A stretch of 64,000 nucleotides of DNA from positions 682,001 to 746,000 of the forward strand of contig NC_015577.1 in assembly GCF_000214355.1 (NCBI RefSeq). The letters are read 5' to 3'. This DNA is from Leadbettera azotonutricia ZAS-9. Lineage in GTDB: Bacteria > Spirochaetota > Spirochaetia > Treponematales > Breznakiellaceae. The notes beneath the pieces are model-generated. The model was not told the origin of the DNA and did not search any database. It saw only the letters and a program-made list of their open reading frames with translations. The translations under genes and the position numbers were made by a program. Positions 25,989-34,265 of this stretch are shown here, in pieces (positions within the stretch are counted from its first letter, which is position 1; each line of letters opens with the position of its first letter).

Positions 25989-26626
25989 TTGAACCAGTCG
26001 AACCGGGCGAGACCCTTACCCACGAGCAGCGTTCCCTCGATCATTTTTTGCAGATTTACAAGGCCCTTGATCCTTTGGAAATTTCCCGCCGCTGCAATCT
26101 TCAATTTGACAGTAATGCATTTAATATGCGCATCATGGGAACCGAATACAAAGCAGCCTTCCCCGATTTTTCACTTGAGGATTTACAGGGAAACATAGTC
26201 CAACGGGGTTACGAGAATATACTTTTCCTGCGTTACCTTTGCGAAGGGAAGTATGCGGTTTCAACAGGAAAACAGCTTTCCTATCGTGAAATACCCTGGG
26301 GGGAAGTATACTTTAAAAATTTTGAAGGCCGTTGCCTTAAACGTTTTGCTCATGCCTTTAGCAGTGATATTGAGGGCCTCAAAAAAGCCCTTGCAGACAT
26401 GGGCGCTGAAAAACTCAACAAAGGCGATGCGGGTTACCGCTTTGAATTTTGCAGCGGTCTTTACATGAGCGCCCTCATCTGGGCGGCGGATGATGAATTT
26501 CCTCCTTCGGCCCAAATGCTCTTTGACGACAATTTCGCGTCCGCCTTCACCGTCGAGGATATAGCGGTGGTTGGCGGGGTGGTGATAGACAGGCTAAAGG
26601 AGATGACGGCAAAGCATTGCCAATAA
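25985..26626 (+). CDS. DUF3786 family protein
   Basis: A 213-residue protein recognised as DUF3786 by the central LRYLCEGK, WGEVYFKNFEGRCLKRFAHAF and FPPSAQMLFDDNFASAFTVED motifs. The family occurs next to corrinoid proteins and CODH/ACS genes in anaerobes and has no assigned biochemical role. It may act as a metal-centre or corrinoid accessory. ATGA overlap with the activator upstream indicates coupling and makes it the last gene of this corrinoid operon. No strong terminator follows. The 242-bp gap before vapB contains a short hairpin at 26768-26789 (AGGGCCG/CGGCCCT) without a T-run. Confidence 0.75.
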   Translation: MIEPVEPGETLTHEQRSLDHFLQIYKALDPLEISRRCNLQFDSNAFNMRIMGTEYKAAFPDFSLEDLQGNIVQRGYENILFLRYLCEGKYAVSTGKQLSYREIPWGEVYFKNFEGRCLKRFAHAFSSDIEGLKKALADMGAEKLNKGDAGYRFEFCSGLYMSALIWAADDEFPPSAQMLFDDNFASAFTVEDIAVVGGVVIDRLKEMTAKHCQ

Positions 26627-26821
26627 TCTATCGTATGCTTAATTCCTGTGCGGGTTTAGTATCCGGCGCCAATAGTTTCTTGTACAAAAGAAATAATCTC
26701 CATAATTCATAATAGTTTCTTTTATTCCTTGTTAGATGCCATTAAAACCAGAAATTTAATAAGAGGCAGGGCCGTATCCGTGCGGCCCTCAAAGAAATAT
26801 CAAAAATATGCCTAAAAACAC

Positions 26822-26863
26822 TTGACAAAGCATACTTTTTACCGATAATATGTGCATAGGAGG
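26822..26863 (+). promoter_or_regulatory. vapBC promoter and Shine-Dalgarno
   Basis: TTGACA at 26822-26827 and GATAAT at 26844-26849 (16-bp spacing; TAATAT two bases later gives 18) form a near-consensus promoter. AGGAGG at 26858-26863 stands 6 bases before the vapB ATG at 26870. The leader is very short, so transcription probably starts within a few bases of the ribosome site. Confidence 0.7.
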
Positions 26864-26869
26864 ACATTT

Positions 26870-27061
26870 ATGAGAACTACCTTAGATTTACCTGAAACAT
26901 TAGTATCAGAGGCCATGGAAATAACTAATATTTCCACAAAAAAAGAAGTCGTTATAACGGCATTGGAAAATTTAATCCGTGCAGAAAAAATTAAGGGAAT
27001 TAAGGATTATGCTGGAAAAATCGATCTTGGAATTGACATTGAAAAAATGAGGAAAAGATGA
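26870..27061 (+). CDS. vapB: VapB-type antitoxin
   Basis: A 63-residue protein beginning MRTTLDLPETLVSEAMEI, the ribbon-helix-helix start of the DUF2191 VapB family, followed by KKEVVITALENLIRAEKI and a basic, disordered toxin-binding tail. It binds and neutralises the PIN ribonuclease and represses its own promoter. The ATG at 26870 is chosen over 26852 because of the AGGAGG. The stop overlaps the toxin start (ATGA), the classic antitoxin-first arrangement. The pair is more AT-rich than the neighbouring corrinoid genes, a sign of mobility. Confidence 0.88.
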   Translation: MRTTLDLPETLVSEAMEITNISTKKEVVITALENLIRAEKIKGIKDYAGKIDLGIDIEKMRKR

Positions 27062-27441
27062 ATACTATACTAGTGGATTCATCGGCATGGATAGAATATT
27101 TCAAGACCTATGAAGATTACGCCTTTATTGACGATCTTATAGACAATAATTCAATATGTACCAATGATCTAATCTTAACAGAGTTATTACCGTCAATGAT
27201 TCATAGAAAGGAAAACCATTTAATAGCATTACTTAACAGTGTAGTAAAATACGAAGTAGAAATTAACTGGAAAGAATTACAGAACATTCAAGTTATGAAT
27301 TATAAACATGGATACAATGACATAGGGATAACGGATTTAATAATTGCACAAAATTGTTTGCAAAATAATCTATCATTAGTTGCACGGGATAAACATTTTA
27401 ACGAAATGGCAGAATATTTACCTTTAAAAATGTATAAATAA
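27058..27441 (+). CDS. vapC: VapC-type PIN-domain ribonuclease toxin
   Basis: A 127-residue PIN-domain protein. The acidic active-site residues are visible at Asp7 (VDSSAW), Glu42 (LTELL), Asp93 (GITDLIIA) and Asp111 (ARDKHF), so the toxin looks intact. VapC enzymes cleave tRNA or rRNA in a Mg-dependent manner when free of antitoxin. Overlaps vapB by 4 bp. The 249 bp after it (27442-27690) hold no gene I can support, only a 27-codon minus-strand frame starting MGYNVLIVEAEERS around 27530-27611 that may be a remnant. Confidence 0.88.
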   Translation: MNTILVDSSAWIEYFKTYEDYAFIDDLIDNNSICTNDLILTELLPSMIHRKENHLIALLNSVVKYEVEINWKELQNIQVMNYKHGYNDIGITDLIIAQNCLQNNLSLVARDKHFNEMAEYLPLKMYK

Positions 27442-27690
27442 ATTGACTAAAATGAAAGTACGCCAGGAACCCGCTTGCGCGGGGGAGGTCCATGGCGGAC
27501 TTTGCCGTTGTGGGTTTTAACAGCATCTAACAAAATTGTATACGCTTTTCTTCCTTGCGGAAGACCGGGCTGCGCTCCTCGGCCTCCACAATCAGGACGT
27601 TATAGCCCATTAAATTTTCTCTCGTCCCTCCCGGAGGAAGAAAATTAGCCGCCCCCGTATGGAGCGGCGTAAAATTAGTGCCAGGTACTG

Positions 27691-29722
27691 TTAATTTGCA
27701 GCCAGTTTACCGATATTCGTGCCTGAGTTCTCAATATGGTAGCCCGTTATGGGAACGCTGGTGTAAGGATTATTGGAATATTGAAAGTTCCCCAGGGTGA
27801 ATTTGTTCACAAGGGCTGTTGTCAGGTCTCCCTCCAATACAGCCCTAGAGCTGGTGACATAGGGGCTTGCGGCAAGAGTGGATTGTTCAGCCGTCAGGTC
27901 AACAACTGCGGAACCGGTAAAGTTTGCTTTTACCTGGATATCGCCATTTAATTTAAGAAATATGGTGTTGCGGGTCTGGTTCTGGGCTGTGTCTGTACCG
28001 GTTCCCGGTTCAATGATCGCAGTACCGCCTATGAGGAAGGTCCCATCATTGCAGACCCCGGCGCCCTCTGCCTCTGCCTGGGAAACCGATCCGGCTACTT
28101 TTGCCCTATTGTTGCGGATTATCCCGCCGTTCATAAGAAACCTTCCCCTGTAGTTAAATACACCGCCGCCATAGGCAGAGCCATTGTTTCCGCCAGTCTC
28201 AGCAAAATTATCGGATATTTCACCGCCGTTCATGGTAAAGGTAGCAGAATATTCCACCATGACACCGCCGCCTTCCGCATCTGCATACGATCCTGTTGAT
28301 TTATTGTGGTTTCCGCTGATTTTTGCCCCGCTTTCCATCTGGAGTACGCCATAATTTTGTACCACTACCAATGCGCTGTTATTATTATTCTTGCCCAGCA
28401 GGGTAATATTATTACCCAGGCTCAGGTTTGGCTTGTAGTTGTAGGGGCCCACTGCAGGATCATAGGGGAAGGAGTAACGATTGGAAAAGTTGATGGTAAA
28501 GAGTGCCCCGTTTCCCGAAAGGCTTATTTTCCGCTCGGCTCCTGAACCTTCCAGTTTGATGATGACCTCTGTCTTGTTGTTCACGGCAGCAGCGTTCAGG
28601 GTTGTGGGGGCCAAGACTGCGTCAGCGGTCAGTTTGATGGTATAAACAGTATCGTTCACAGCATTCGACTTAATATAGGTCAACGCTTCTGTCAGGGTGG
28701 AGATGTCCGCCACTGCAGTTGTAGCCTCTCCTATGTAGAGTTCGGCGTTTGTCACCACCGGCAGCGTTACGGTAACCACAGCGCTTCCCGACTTTGTTGT
28801 ATTCACGGTGGATGTTGCTGTCACCGTTAAGGTTCCTGTGCTTTGGCCCGCAGCTACCGTGAGAAGTCCGTTGCTGCTAATACTGGTACCCGTTATACCG
28901 CCTGCTACTGTCCAGGTTACGGTTTGGGCGGGACTGTTGGTTCCGTTTACAGCGGCGCTAAATTGCTGGGTTCCGCCCTGTTCCACGTTTATTGTATTGG
29001 GGGTAACGGTAACGCTGGAAACTGTGGGCGGCACCGTTACGGTAACAACAGCGCTTCCCGACTTTGTGGTGTCCACGGTAGAAGTAGCTGTCACCGTTAA
29101 GGTTCCGGTGCCTTGACCTCCAGCTACCGTGAGGAGGCCGCTATTATTAATACTGGTACCCGTTCCGCCGCCTGTTACTGTCCAGGTTACAGTTTGGGCA
29201 GGGCTGTTGGTTCCCGCAACAGCGGCGCTAAACTGCTGGGTTCCGCCTTGTCCCACGCTCGCCGGATTGGGGGTAACGGTAACACTGGAAACTGTGGGCG
29301 GTGCCGTTACGGTAACCGTAGCGGTTCCCGACTTTGTGGTGTCCACGGTAGAAGTAGCTGTCACCGTAAGAGTTGTTGAAACGGCCTCACTCACAACCAC
29401 GGTAAGCAGGCCGCCATCACTAATACTGGTACCCGTTCCGCCGCCTGTTACTGTCCAGGTTACGGTTTGGGCGGGACTGTTGGTTCCGGTAACGGCGGCG
29501 CTAAACTGCTGGGTTCTGCCCTGCCCTACGTTTACCGGATTGGGGGTAACGGTAACGCTTAAAACCGTGGGTGTGGAACCGCCGCCTGGGCCGCCTTCCG
29601 CATCACCGCAGCCGACAAGAAAGGCGGCCAGGATAAGAAGCAAGGGGAAAAGAGTTAGGAAGTGGCTAAACCTCGGGGGGGGGTACGGTATTACCCCTTA
29701 CCTTGTCAAGAGCTTTTTGCAT
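27691..29722 (-). pseudogene. Ig-like (BIG2) repeat lipoprotein, signal peptide frame broken at a poly-C tract
   Basis: The body (from 29643 down) is a surface lipoprotein: lipobox LVGC, three Ig-like repeats of about 95 residues (SVTVTPNP-V-QGGTQQFSA, QTVTWTVTGG), then a Gly/Asn-rich beta-helix-like part (FTMNGGEISDN, FLMNGGIIRNN). No ATG starts that frame. An ATG at 29722 with AAAAGGAG upstream enters a different frame and meets TAG after a run of nine C (29675-29683 on the minus strand). With eight C the reading continues as PPPRFSHFLTLFPLLLILAAFLVGC in consecutive pieces, a perfect lipoprotein signal of a 676-residue protein. Either phase variation (OFF here) or a sequencing error in the homopolymer explains this. 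It is listed as disrupted for that reason. Confidence 0.75.
29675..29683 (-). repeat. Nine-base homopolymer (poly-C on coding strand), candidate phase-variation tract
   Basis: Nine G on the plus strand lie between the start codon at 29722 and the hydrophobic core of the signal peptide. Changing the length to eight or eleven joins the two frames; nine gives a stop nine bases later. Position in the first 20 codons of a surface protein gene is typical of slipped-strand contingency loci. Confidence 0.6.
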
Positions 29723-29828
29723 AGGATTCTCCTTTTGCGTTTAATGTCCGCCGACAATAGTTGTCTTAGTATAAGGGGGGAAATAAAGGCTTGTAGTGAG
29801 AGAAAACTCACAGTTTTATGATTTTTTT
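29723..29828 (-). promoter_or_regulatory. Duplicated upstream region, copy A
   Basis: From the AAAAGGAG at 29729-29736 outward for about 100 bases this matches the region upstream of the second lipoprotein gene (30470-30570) with only around a dozen differences. It contains a -10-like TATACT (minus strand, 29770s), the TGTC-CGCC-GACA dyad and a perfect 6-bp inverted repeat AAAACT-CAC-AGTTTT at 29803-29817. The dyad is about 80 bp from the start codon in both copies. Confidence 0.65.
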
Positions 29829-30041
29829 TTAAAAGTGGAGGCTTTCTCCGGATCAGAGCCGGAATTTTGGAAATTTGGCGCCCTGCGAAGTGGGGACTTT
29901 CCCCTTGTTTACTGGACGCGGTCAAGAAAAGTCATGGGCACCCCAGAGAAAAGCCATAATAAGTACACAAAGTAATAAATCTCTTCCAGGGATACAGACA
30001 GGAATTTAATCGCGAACGATACGGAAAGAAATTTTAAATCA
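29829..30041. other. Intergenic stretch without a recognisable gene
   Basis: Between the copy A upstream region and the hairpin near 30042 I see no reading frame with protein-like composition, no RNA gene and no repeat. The stretch is mixed in composition and may be what is left of an older gene or simply spacer between the two lipoprotein units. Confidence 0.4.
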
Positions 30042-30070
30042 AAATGCTCTGCCATAATGACAGAGCATTT
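30042..30070. terminator. Ten-base-pair hairpin after the small lipoprotein gene
   Basis: AAATGCTCTG (30042-30051) and CAGAGCATTT (30061-30070) are exact complements around a 9-base loop, followed on the plus strand by ATTGTTTTTTT. The lipoprotein gene on the minus strand stops 27 bp before it, and on that strand the tail is only moderately T-rich. Probably the terminator of that gene, possibly working in both directions. Confidence 0.65.
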
Positions 30071-30096
30071 ATTGTTTTTTTAAATTATTATTCTAT

Positions 30097-30462
30097 TCAG
30101 TCAAAACTTCCGGTGCTTCTTAAAATGACAGTTACGACACCATCACCGCCAAGATTTACATAAGAATTTGTTTTAGTGCTTCCGTTAACGGTTATCTCAA
30201 CAACAAAAACCCAGTCATCATTGCCAAATGAAAAAGTTTTTTCATTATCTTGGGCTATGGTAACATCTTGATCAAAACGAACAGTACCTCCTTCGTACAG
30301 ACTGATTTTAACATGAGTTATGGAGGCAGCATTCTCATTTTTGATTGTTATTTGATGTCCGCCACCGCCGCTGGTTGAATCATTGTCACAGCCAACAAAC
30401 ATCAGCCCGAATGTCAGAACCATTCCCAACATCCCCAAAAGAAATAATTTGTTTTTCTTCAT
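30097..30462 (-). CDS. Small putative lipoprotein
   Basis: A 121-residue protein whose first 25 residues are a clear lipoprotein signal (MKKNKLFLLGMLGMVLTF, then FVGC with Cys25 as lipid site). After a Ser/Gly-rich linker the mature part looks like a small all-beta domain (HQITIKNENAASITHVKISLY and VFVVEITVNGSTKT). I do not recognise the family; similar short lipoproteins with an ITIKNE beta start are common in termite-gut treponemes. The ATG at 30462 has AAAAGGAG at the same distance as the gene at 29722. A longer frame to 30552 is only the translated duplicated leader. Confidence 0.7.
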   Translation of the reverse strand: MKKNKLFLLGMLGMVLTFGLMFVGCDNDSTSGGGGHQITIKNENAASITHVKISLYEGGTVRFDQDVTIAQDNEKTFSFGNDDWVFVVEITVNGSTKTNSYVNLGGDGVVTVILRSTGSFD

Positions 30463-30570
30463 GGAAAAACTCCTTTTGCGTTTAATGTCCGCCGACAATA
30501 TTGGTCTTAGTATAAAGGGTAAAATAAAGGTCTGTATTGAGAGAAAACTCACAGTTTTGCGTTTTTTTGG
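30463..30570 (-). promoter_or_regulatory. Duplicated upstream region, copy B
   Basis: Matches copy A (29723-29828) over about 100 bases, including the AAAACT-CAC-AGTTTT inverted repeat at 30544-30558, the -10-like TATACT and the TGTC-CGCC-GACA dyad. It ends about 20 bp before the stop of the response-regulator gene, so the lipoprotein promoter abuts that gene. The shared parts probably give the two lipoproteins common control, perhaps by the adjacent response regulator (inference). Confidence 0.65.
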
Positions 30571-30589
30571 AAAAATAGAACGATTTTTT

Positions 30590-31216
30590 CTATAATTTGA
30601 CCAGATCGCCCCGGGTGGTCGTGCCGGTTTTGTCGTAAATGCGGCTCAGGTAGTTTTCTATGGTACGCTGTTCTACCTTAAGCTCCCGGGCGATGCGGCT
30701 GTTGCTGTAATTTTTCTGCACCAGGGCAAGAATTTCCCGTTCCCGCCGGGTAAGCCGGGAATAGAAATCGGGAAGGCTCGTCATTTTTTTTGCAAGGTGT
30801 TTATCAATGTAGGACTTTCCTGCTATCACCGCATCCAGGGCCGCCTCAATTTCGCCTTCGTCCGCTGATTTTGAGATATAGCCTCGGGCGCCCATGCGCA
30901 GACTGGACTGCACCCGATAGGGATCCTCAAAGACTGAGTACACCAGTACCGCCGGAACAGGTTTGTTTTCGCTGGTATATTTTTTTTCGAGCCAGGGGAT
31001 AAGTTCAAGGCCGTTCTCTTCACCCAATTCTATATCCAGAAGAACAAGATGGGGCGGGCCGGGAAGCTTTTCAAACAGGGCGTAAGCGTCTTTAAGAGAC
31101 CCGGCTTCTCCCAGCAGGGCAAAACGGTTTGTCTCGGTAAGATAGATCCCAAAGCCCTTGCGGATCATCCGGTGATCGTCAATTAAAACCAGCGTAGGCT
31201 TTTCTGCTTTATTCAT
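30590..31216 (-). CDS. NarL/LuxR-type response regulator
   Basis: A 208-residue two-domain regulator. The receiver (about 1-125) has LVLIDDHRMIRKG, the phosphoacceptor in LVLLDIELGEENG, and the KSADEG lysine. The C-terminal LuxR helix-turn-helix reads LTRREREILALVQKNYSNSRIARELKVEQRTIENYLSRIYDKTG in consecutive motifs. It is encoded with the membrane protein upstream (start overlaps its stop by 8 bp) and divergent from a DegS/NarX-type histidine kinase 660 bp away, its likely phosphate donor. The two lipoprotein genes downstream are the nearest candidate targets. Confidence 0.9.
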   Translation of the reverse strand: MNKAEKPTLVLIDDHRMIRKGFGIYLTETNRFALLGEAGSLKDAYALFEKLPGPPHLVLLDIELGEENGLELIPWLEKKYTSENKPVPAVLVYSVFEDPYRVQSSLRMGARGYISKSADEGEIEAALDAVIAGKSYIDKHLAKKMTSLPDFYSRLTRREREILALVQKNYSNSRIARELKVEQRTIENYLSRIYDKTGTTTRGDLVKL

Positions 31217-31838
31217 ATTTCAATTTCCGTATAAGCAGGGCAAGGCCGTATCCGCCAAATACAGACAAAAGGCGGTCAAAAATATTTATGGGAAGCCGGG
31301 ATATTATCTCCGCAGCAAGAACAGGCATATTATTTATCAAAAGTCCAAGTTTAAAATAGTTTTCGGGCGAAACGGTATACCCGGGTATTGGAACCAGTGC
31401 AGGAATAAGCGCGGCGATACATCCGCCCATGATGCTCATTTGCAGGCACAGTACGACCGAGAGCAATAGCAATGCGGTAAACGTACCGAATCCGGAATCT
31501 GCATCTGCCGGGGCGCTCTGTGTCGCAGTAAGCCTGAGCTTGTAGCTGCGGCAAAAAACCTCGGTCAGCGCAACCCCTGTAATGCTGCACAGGACATACA
31601 GGCTGTATATCGGCATATACGGAGGCAGCAGAAACGTACCCACTGCAGAGGTCAGGATGGCGCTTATGATTCCAAAGACCGGGCCTGAGAGAAAAGTAAC
31701 GGTCAGCGTAAAAAGGGTGTCGAGGAAGAGGGGCAGACCAAGGATCCTGTTTACCAGAATATTGAGCAGGCAATTTCCTCCGCTCAAAAGAACACAGAGG
31801 AACAGGTTTTTTAGCCAATATTTGGACGTTCCTGCCAT
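31209..31838 (-). CDS. Polytopic membrane protein, ECF S-component-like
   Basis: A 209-residue protein with about five or six hydrophobic segments. LFLDTLFTLTVTFLSGPVFG with IISAILTSAVGTFL resembles the substrate-binding half of ECF-transporter S components or related small-molecule sensor membrane modules. No ECF ATPase is nearby. Its tight coupling to a response regulator and a divergent kinase suggests a sensory or co-sensor role in the inner membrane rather than transport. GAAGGA precedes the ATG at 31838. Only 38 bp separate it from the kinase start, so the two promoters overlap. Confidence 0.6.
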   Translation of the reverse strand: MAGTSKYWLKNLFLCVLLSGGNCLLNILVNRILGLPLFLDTLFTLTVTFLSGPVFGIISAILTSAVGTFLLPPYMPIYSLYVLCSITGVALTEVFCRSYKLRLTATQSAPADADSGFGTFTALLLLSVVLCLQMSIMGGCIAALIPALVPIPGYTVSPENYFKLGLLINNMPVLAAEIISRLPINIFDRLLSVFGGYGLALLIRKLKYE

Positions 31839-31876
31839 ATATTCCTTCTGTAGTAAAAACTATATATCATGGTAAC

Positions 31877-33127
31877 ATGATTTTATATCCTCAAGTCAAC
31901 AGACATAAGGCACTGGTGATGTTGATGCTGCTTATTCCCTCATGGCTTTGGGCGCTCTCCCCTGCGGAGGAGGCAGTGATAGATGATCCGGTAACGGCTT
32001 ACGCTATTTTGGAAAAATGGATCGATGCGGAAGCAGAACTTGCCGTATGGTACAATACGGACGGTTCAGCCGAAGCTTCCGATGCAGTTCTCGCAACTCT
32101 TGATGATTTTGGCGCCGTGCTGAACCACTTTGCGGGGGAAGCCCGGTATCAGGCCTACTTTATGACATCCTTTTCCCATGAATCTATTGTGAATAACATA
32201 CTGGACCTCTGTGAATCCCTTGCCGCCGCTGTTCGTTTGGGACAGTCCGGCAACGCACGGGAACAGGCGCTGGCTGTGCGCGGGGCGATTGTCGCATGGC
32301 AGCGCTACGATGAAGAATTGCTTAACCGAATACAGCTTGGTTATTTTTATCACCTTATCGGCTTTAGCGCTTTTATTATGATAATGGTATTCGTGCTCTG
32401 GCGTATGTCACGGGTTTTGTGGCATTCCCGGGAGAAGGAACGGCAGTCCGCTGCTTTTTCCCGCGAGATAGTCCTTGCCCAGGAACGGGAACGATCCCGT
32501 ATTTCGCGGGAACTGCATGATACCATTGTCCAGGATCTGCGGTACCAGGGACTGAGGCTTGCCGGTATTAGCCGAAAATCCGATGCTGAGGATACTCAAA
32601 AAATATGCCGGGAAATAATCGCGGACCAGAAAAATATCATTGCCCGGCTTAAAGATCTCTGCTACGGCCTTCTGCCGCCTGACTTGCATCAGCTGGGTCT
32701 GCCGGATGTTCTGCGCCGTTTGGTTACCGAGTTTAACAAACAAACAGGAATTGAATGCCGGGTGAGCGTTCAGGAAGACCTTATCATTCAGCCCCTTACC
32801 GAAGAAATGCAGCTTCAATGTTTCAGGCTTGTTCAAGAGTCCCTTACCAATATTGGGAAACACGCTCATGCCAGTGAAGCGGTGCTTGTTCTGCGAAACG
32901 CCTTTCTTGCCGGACATGATGATAAACCAACGCTGCTTATCTATGTGTCCGACGATGGCCGGGGTTTTGAAAAAGCTCCTTCCCCCCTGGGATCTGAATC
33001 GGGCTTGGGTATCCGGGGTATGTACGAGCGTATCGCCATTCTCGGCGGCAGCCTGTCTTTTATAACCGCCCCCGGCGAAGGCGCTATGGTCAGGATTGAA
33101 ATCCCCCTGAGCGGTTCTATTCCCTAA
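31877..33127 (+). CDS. Sensor histidine kinase, HisKA_3 (NarX/DegS) type
   Basis: A 416-residue membrane kinase. A signal/TM segment (about 12-27), an extracytoplasmic helical sensor of about 125 residues, a second TM near 155-173 (YHLIGFSAFIMIMVFVLW), then the dimerisation helix with phosphoacceptor His214 in RISRELHDTIVQDLRYQG. The HATPase domain has the N box in ESLTNIGKHAHAS, the G1 box YVSDDGRGF and the G2 box GLGIRGMYERIAILGG. It should phosphorylate the divergently encoded response regulator. The 3' end overlaps the convergent oxidoreductase gene by 11 bp. Confidence 0.9.
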   Translation: MILYPQVNRHKALVMLMLLIPSWLWALSPAEEAVIDDPVTAYAILEKWIDAEAELAVWYNTDGSAEASDAVLATLDDFGAVLNHFAGEARYQAYFMTSFSHESIVNNILDLCESLAAAVRLGQSGNAREQALAVRGAIVAWQRYDEELLNRIQLGYFYHLIGFSAFIMIMVFVLWRMSRVLWHSREKERQSAAFSREIVLAQERERSRISRELHDTIVQDLRYQGLRLAGISRKSDAEDTQKICREIIADQKNIIARLKDLCYGLLPPDLHQLGLPDVLRRLVTEFNKQTGIECRVSVQEDLIIQPLTEEMQLQCFRLVQESLTNIGKHAHASEAVLVLRNAFLAGHDDKPTLLIYVSDDGRGFEKAPSPLGSESGLGIRGMYERIAILGGSLSFITAPGEGAMVRIEIPLSGSIP

Positions 33128-34265
33128 TCGAAACCCAGCCGCGGCGGCGATGGCTTTCTACACAGGCCTCGGTAAGCTTAACAATGCGGGCGGCTTCTTC
33201 CAGGGTTGCAAAGTCCCCTTTGCCTTTTTTACCGCCGGCTATGTGCCGGTAGAAACTGCGTATGTTGCCGGTAAAGGCGTCGTTCCAGCCTTCGGGGTGT
33301 CCCTTGGCAAGGCTGGTATGTTCCAGCGCTTCAGGCGACAAGCAGGCAGGGTCACGGATAAGCAGGCTGTTTTCGGCATTTCTCCTGCCTATCCAGAGGC
33401 GGTCGTTCTGTTCCTGATTCCACATCAGCGAGTTTTTGGCGCCGTTGATTTCAACTTGAAAATAACAGCCATGGCCCGCGCTGACTTCGGACACAGTAAA
33501 GACTCCGGCGGCCCCGTTGGAAAGATGGAAAAGAACAGAGCCGTAATCTTCGTTGCGCACATCCACCAGCTCGTAGGCCTTTTCCCTGTTTGTTGAAAAA
33601 GTTTCCGACTGGGTAAGGGGCTTTTTACGTTTTGGAAACACTGTGCGGAGATCGGCCATTACTTCTGTTATGGTCAAGCCGGTTACATGCTGTACCAGGT
33701 CCATCCAGTGGGAACCGATGTCCGCGATGCAGCAGGAAGGTCCCGCGATTTCGGGTTCCAGGCGCCAGCTGTAATCGGTATCGTAGAGAAGCCAGTCCTG
33801 CAGATAACATCCTGAAACGGCGAGCACATCGCCTGTATCGCCTTTCGCGATGCGTCGGCGCATTTCCTGCACCATGGGATTCATGCGGTAATTGAAATTA
33901 ACCGCAGCGAGGGAAGCGGGATTTTTTTGGCTGTGTTCAAGCAGATCTTTGGCCTCATTGTAATTGAGAGCCAGGGGCTTCTCGGATAAAAGGTGTTTGC
34001 CTGAACTGATAATTGCCTTGTTCACCGCCGTATGCAGGTTGTTGGGCGTACAGTTATGCACCACCTCAATATCGGGATCAGCGAGGAGGGTCTCGATAGA
34101 ATCGTAACAGCGGGGCACGCCGTAGAGCTTGGCCTTTTTTTGGGCAAGCTCCCTGTTGGCATCAGCCACCGCGTAGAGTTCGCATTCGGCAATGCGGCGG
34201 ACAGCATCGATATGGCTTACGCCGATATAGCCCATACCGATAATTGCGGTTTTAAGTTTTTTCAT
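33117..34265 (-). CDS. Gfo/Idh/MocA family oxidoreductase
   Basis: A 382-residue NAD(P)-dependent sugar or polyol dehydrogenase. The Rossmann fingerprint is AIIGMGYIGVSHIDA at the N-terminus, the EKPLALN lysine motif lies near residue 95, and the C-terminal domain includes GSHWMDLVQHVTG. The substrate cannot be read from sequence. The ATG at 34265 overlaps the stop of the upstream epimerase gene by 4 bp, and an alternative start 15 bp further out lacks family match. Last gene of the leftward sugar operon (LacI, URO-D-like, epimerase, oxidoreductase). Confidence 0.88.
   Translation of the reverse strand: MKKLKTAIIGMGYIGVSHIDAVRRIAECELYAVADANRELAQKKAKLYGVPRCYDSIETLLADPDIEVVHNCTPNNLHTAVNKAIISSGKHLLSEKPLALNYNEAKDLLEHSQKNPASLAAVNFNYRMNPMVQEMRRRIAKGDTGDVLAVSGCYLQDWLLYDTDYSWRLEPEIAGPSCCIADIGSHWMDLVQHVTGLTITEVMADLRTVFPKRKKPLTQSETFSTNREKAYELVDVRNEDYGSVLFHLSNGAAGVFTVSEVSAGHGCYFQVEINGAKNSLMWNQEQNDRLWIGRRNAENSLLIRDPACLSPEALEHTSLAKGHPEGWNDAFTGNIRSFYRHIAGGKKGKGDFATLEEAARIVKLTEACVESHRRRGWVSIRE

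Follow-up and report, generated by a model that had tools for sequence, protein, structure and literature searches.

Switching of surface proteins by poly-G or poly-C contingency loci is already well known. Among the closest described examples are those of Treponema pallidum, for which 17 poly-G tracts chosen at a length of at least 8 nt have been reported, 76% of them variable in length; the tract at tprL runs from 7 to 11 (PMC7864442, from the portion of the article available). The same portion records that length varies in vivo and that some of the listed tracts lie inside open reading frames, and it places the well-studied tracts in the promoter, upstream of the start of transcription. In Neisseria meningitidis, a homopolymer in the coding sequence of the surface protein NalP/MspA turns its expression ON or OFF through the reading frame (PMC3723659, available excerpt). 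Campylobacter carries intragenic and intergenic G/C tracts that bring about phase variation genome-wide (PMC8355987, available excerpt).

Phase variation has been studied mostly in pathogens facing an immune system. Leadbettera azotonutricia is a harmless spirochaete that is available in culture and lives as a symbiont in the termite gut. Our search of a literature lying mostly outside subscription journals turned up no description of poly-C tracts or of phase variation for treponemes of the termite gut, and PMC13067680 contains no wording on homopolymers, phase variation or poly-C. Poly-C switches of surface proteins in such a lineage of gut symbionts, if they rest on a common leader and frame gate, would show phase variation operating in a mutualism, and in a model that can be cultured and tested.

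The locus described here lies in a 64,000-nucleotide stretch (the window) of the one-contig genome of L. azotonutricia ZAS-9 (3,855,671 bases; G000). An initial annotation of the window held that nine C's between a good start codon and a signal core put an Ig-repeat lipoprotein out of frame, and it interpreted this as phase variation of a Treponema surface protein, captured OFF. The first of these statements is borne out by reading the minus strand, on which all of the gene lies. An ATG (29722-29720) is preceded by the Shine-Dalgarno sequence AAAAGGAG (29729..29736), which is conserved in the second lipoprotein gene of the window; the spacing from AAGGAG to the ATG is 6. From the ATG, a leader of 13 codons, MQKALDKVRGNTV (29684..29722), runs up to a tract of nine C's (29675..29683; G9 on the plus strand), the only tract of length 9 in the genome. 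The tract begins 39 nt past the A of the ATG. As read, the ATG frame encodes MQKALDKVRGNTVPPPEV and terminates at a TAG (29666..29668).

What lies beyond the tract depends on the frame. One frame stops after two codons and another after five; the third is open to 27691 and uninterrupted over 660 codons. This open frame (27691..29673) contains the signal core FLTLFPLLLILAAFLVGC, the lipobox LVGC with its Cys codon at 29610-29608, and three Ig-like repeats of 270 bp (28759-29571). The Ig part matches Big_2 (PF02368, E 4.3e-14). By pattern the product is a lipoprotein, with a signal core followed by a lipobox Cys, in a frame different from that of the leader ATG and unjoined to it as read. The homopolymer sits between the start codon and the gene body, and its length sets the frame: translation would read through in one register of three and meet an early stop in the other two. 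The C-terminal region of the protein matched no family, and NCBIfam gave none for the protein as a whole. Nor did a search of genome_contigs for close orthologues inform us about the tract, the best matches being pieces of only 26-50% identity.

Is the ATG at 29722 the true start? We searched 195 genomes of the family with a 27-base leader pattern, CTTGACANGNNNNNNGGTAATACNGTA. With at most one mismatch it was found in two of them, once in L. azotonutricia, at the window site, and three times in a second genome, G037 (4,059,867 bases). All four of these matches have an ATG 12 nt upstream of the pattern; the seven other matches each have two mismatches and lack such context. In the three G037 leaders, AAGGAG stands 7-8 nt ahead of the ATG, and the window leader is identical to them at 31/39, 31/39 and 29/39 nucleotides. 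A profile built from these three leaders recovers the window site with an E-value of 2.9e-5 in 230 kb, the next match having an E-value of 1.

Two of the three G037 genes are intact. L284:3366-5537 encodes a lipoprotein of 723 amino acids (MKITLDKLMGNTVPGLPPVGLPGYKKP...LTACGD) with C5 at the tract site; it is a homologue of the window protein, with 51% identity over 288 amino acids of the Ig part. L285:2950-4011 also encodes an intact lipoprotein and has C7. In this second species a gene of the same kind is thus intact in both leader and body, which favours ATG 29722 as the real start and the lipoprotein frame as what follows it. The remaining locus (L203/L233), with C19, reads out of frame, and its open frame carries an additional TAG, a sign, from the sequence, that such loci can decay. 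Homologous tract sites are thus found in both registers, with C5 and C7 in frame and C9 and C19 out of frame, a comparison across paralogues and species and not within a strain. This would be the pattern expected of a contingency locus seen across relatives. Counting against it, the short runs of the intact relatives (C5 and C7) may be stable.

The reading that best fits these observations is that the window site is a frame-type contingency locus, giving ON/OFF phase variation and captured in the OFF register; we put its probability at about 0.6. Translation would begin at ATG 29722, pass through the short leader, whose sequence is conserved among related lipoprotein genes, and go on into the C's, which are read as proline codons. 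Slippage during replication would alter the number of C's. Only one register of three would carry the leader on into the signal peptide and yield the lipoprotein; either of the others would bring the ribosome to an early stop codon, and no product would reach the membrane. The assembly would represent an OFF register. The leader, the tract, the frames and the homologous genes with their tract lengths are observed in sequence; we infer that tract length changes within living populations and that the ON register yields the protein. Switching is realistic at nine C's, given that T. pallidum tracts of at least 8 nt mostly vary and that tprL ranges from 7 to 11 (PMC7864442, available portion).

The T. 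pallidum tracts at tprE/G/J/L and tp0126 resemble this locus in that they are G/C homopolymers of about 7-11 at surface-protein genes in the same order of bacteria (PMC7864442, available portion). Unlike the promoter tracts, the window tract lies inside a translated leader and would act through the reading frame. A promoter-type switch of the T. pallidum kind does not appear to fit, since a start codon with a Shine-Dalgarno sequence lies 39 nt ahead of the tract. The NalP/MspA switch resembles this locus in having its homopolymer in the coding sequence of a surface protein and in acting by frame. The proteins are unrelated, however, and here a leader is common to several different genes, and many tracts of the lineage have in common a 21-nt core in which two frames are closed. 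We know of no shared leader or core in Campylobacter. As far as the literature search tells, what is new is the use of such loci in termite-gut treponemes and the combination of a shared leader with a frame gate. The name Treponema, used in the initial annotation for this surface protein, is right in the old sense; the organism is now placed in the family Breznakiellaceae and is no pathogen.

Is a run of nine C's itself beyond chance? Exact counts of C/G runs over the whole genome gave 35 eights, a single nine, nothing from 10 to 12, and six longer runs (13, 15, 16, 17, 17 and 45). Trained on the window, a Markov model of order 5 predicts 48 of length 8, about 7 of length 9, about 4 of 10-12 and none of 13 or more. 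The six long runs are far above chance. C9, by length alone, is background: with one observed and about 7 expected, it does not exceed that of the genome. To exceed background is no strict requirement for a contingency locus, yet the failure to do so bars us from filing the locus as one with confidence. Judged by its position and homology (leader profile, E 2.9e-5), the site is beyond chance. The claim of an ON/OFF switch captured OFF stands in part: it gains from intact genes whose homologous leaders end in tracts of different length, and loses by the length of the tract.

The background count also bears on a plainer account, in which a single slip of the tract left the gene silent or in decay, with no useful switching. 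A run of nine belongs to the background tail of the length distribution, the core that follows the window tract is degenerate, and the sister locus L203 has gained a further stop. We nevertheless regard a plain frameshift as unlikely. The frame downstream is clean for 660 codons, a shift in a homopolymer is reversible by nature, and both registers are represented among several such genes of two genomes.

A second alternative is an error of sequencing or assembly, such that the true count differs from nine and the gene is simply ON. A miscount by one base is the easiest error to make in a homopolymer, and an N beside the C15 tract of L051 indicates that such tracts are hard to read. Short runs appear to have been read soundly, however: in a sample of 23 of the genome's 35 tracts of length 8, 22 lie within open reading frames (of at least 80 amino acids), one of which encodes what we take to be SAM synthetase. 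Even if there were an error, the run would fall within the range of lengths that vary in T. pallidum (PMC7864442, available portion). We consider this account improbable. The same 22 of 23 are consistent with stability at length 8.

If the switch captured OFF is the right reading, might the long tracts elsewhere in the genome be of the same kind? Four of the six (C16, C15, C45 and C13) lie upstream of lipoprotein genes, with the C's on the sense strand. One C17 tract directly follows the ATG of a gene for a LuxR-type response regulator (L055) and, as sequenced, shifts that gene out of frame; the sixth tract falls in GC-rich sequence that fits no clear category. The regulator gene, L055:4984-5642, corresponds to about 3205083-3205741 of the chromosome (G000:C1). 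Its locus is paralogous to positions 30590-33127 of the window, with a histidine kinase 39%, a regulator 45% and a membrane protein 38% identical, and small lipoproteins adjoin the genes in both places. The L055 product is a possible phase-variable regulator.

We scored the association with lipoproteins by a pattern test for a lipobox within 450 nt of the tract, a test that misses the FFGC of the C45 gene. On the C-sense strand, a lipobox was found near 4/7 of the L. azotonutricia tracts of at least 9, near 2/23 of its tracts of exactly 8, and near 6/19 of the G037 tracts of at least 10; on the opposite (G-sense) strand there was none near tracts of either genome. For tracts of at least 12 in the two genomes together, the count is 9/20 C-sense versus 0/20 G-sense (Fisher p 0.0012), and the comparison of 9/20 with the 2/23 of exactly 8 gives p 0.012. 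The same test on other genomes of the family gave 0/9 for G027 and G014 (1 skipped), 1/4 for G028 (4 skipped) and 3/17 for five others (16 further tracts near ends skipped). The link between tracts and lipoproteins is weak or absent in these other family genomes.

As sequenced, several genes with long tracts read out of frame: L197 (an outer-membrane-type protein, C15), L201 (C16, a lipoprotein), L243 (C20, a lipoprotein in a third genome) and L055 (C17, the response regulator). L200 (C18) is in frame. Related leaders in G082 have C18 (L247), C12 (L251) and C12 (L253). The C16 of L201 (2978-2993, in G037) lies about 48 codons into a lipoprotein gene with an ordinary signal peptide; from its sequence we would call this out-of-frame gene a textbook contingency locus by anatomy. 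Very long C runs also occur in one-contig genomes, namely C45 in L. azotonutricia (L053:7026-7070) and C61 in G037 (L190:3060-3120).

The out-of-frame loci allow a third alternative to be weighed, that the protein is made despite C9. Translation might start at the TTG at 29643 (29641..29643), the first standard start in the signal frame and the sole one left there ahead of the signal core; it opens the whole core and gives an ORF of 650 amino acids (27691-29643). Otherwise the ribosome might shift frame on CCC or RNA polymerase might slip on the run; both processes are established, the former where proline codons follow one another. The TTG, however, lacks a Shine-Dalgarno sequence, and the homologues start at the leader ATG. 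The shift needed as read, moreover, is from frame 0 to 1 at the window locus and L197, from 2 to 1 at L243, from 0 to 2 at L201 and from 1 to 0 at L055, and such differences between loci are ill-suited to one programmed direction. We think it improbable that the protein is made in any of these ways. On the preferred reading, a switch at the leader ATG, automated gene calling in these genomes may overlook lipoproteins of this kind or assign them a wrong start.

Directly after many of the family's tracts comes a 21-nt core, GATAGGTTTACTAGGATATAA or a close variant of it. A degenerate pattern for the core has 15 matches in 8/195 genomes, one of which (in G290) looks like chance, and a profile of 13 cores also recovers three diverged copies in G037 (L193, L196 and L202). 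Read from the tract, the core has stops in two frames and is open in the third (IGLLGY...). Regardless of where the core came from, it gates the frame. At L243, L197 and L237 the open frame of the core runs on into a signal peptide. Elsewhere the leader is separate. At L050 (C16, L. azotonutricia) it spans 38 codons as read and reaches a lipoprotein gene at its Shine-Dalgarno sequence; at L053 (C45, with a different following sequence) it spans 27 codons to a TGA overlapping the GTG of a lipoprotein gene. This arrangement suggests translational coupling.

At the window locus the core is at most a remnant. Its counterpart, GAGGTTTA, is only partly recognisable, and the search with the core profile did not report the site; two frames still close at once. 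With a phage origin in mind we searched viral_contigs for the core and found no exact match. A reading of the core, with TATAAT-like words upstream of some tracts, as parts of a promoter was rejected as the main one, because the core lies in the leader frame at L050, L197, L203, L237 and L243 and has stops in just two frames. The nucleotides of the core are near identical between genera, and a nucleic-acid element would also fit.

We tentatively propose, as a conjecture somewhat less likely than not to hold in full, that termite-gut treponemes possess a portable 5' cassette made up of a start codon, a short leader peptide, a proline-coding poly-C tract and a 21-nt frame gate, closed by stops in two frames and open in a conserved third. 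The cassette would stand ahead of many different surface-protein genes; one response regulator likewise has poly-C at the corresponding place after its start codon. Some genes would have the cassette fused directly to their signal peptide. Elsewhere it would form a separate upstream ORF, which in one register runs as far as the lipoprotein gene's start or ribosome-binding site, and there slippage would also tune translation through coupling. The window locus would be a short, partly worn copy.

The upstream region of the window gene, which holds its promoter and ribosome-binding region (29729..29827, minus strand), is 89% identical over 99 bp to 30470-30568. The latter belongs to the neighbouring gene for a small lipoprotein of 121 amino acids (30097..30462, minus strand), which has the same upstream region, an ordinary signal peptide and no tract. 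An inverted repeat, GTGAG-N6-CTCAC (29796..29811, minus strand), recurs in near-identical form at 30537-30552 and is a possible regulator site. One might guess, from position, that the LuxR-type response regulator encoded at 30590..31216 (minus strand), whose paralogue at 3.2 Mb begins with the C17 tract, or the adjacent two-component system controls the shared upstream region. An Rfam scan of 26500-33500 matched no RNA element at an E-value of 1. Downstream of the lipoprotein gene, a VapB antitoxin and a PIN-domain protein (26852-27441, plus strand) form an ordinary type II toxin-antitoxin pair.

C/G runs of 12 or more are found in 106/118 family genomes and runs of exactly 12 in 24/149 genomes of the phylum, two different patterns whose counts are not comparable; we claim no excess of poly-C tracts in Breznakiellaceae over other families. 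The most tract-rich examples are G116, with 174 tracts, and G010, with 135, each tract being counted once. Those of this type that we looked at lie mostly away from lipoproteins, and some, at contig ends, may be artefacts. In G028, C8-C10 and G8-G10 runs are paired around a short loop (L182, L220, L221, L224 and L227; for example, CCCCCCCCCGCAAGGGGGGGGG), and these hairpin-like pairs are repeated within that genome.
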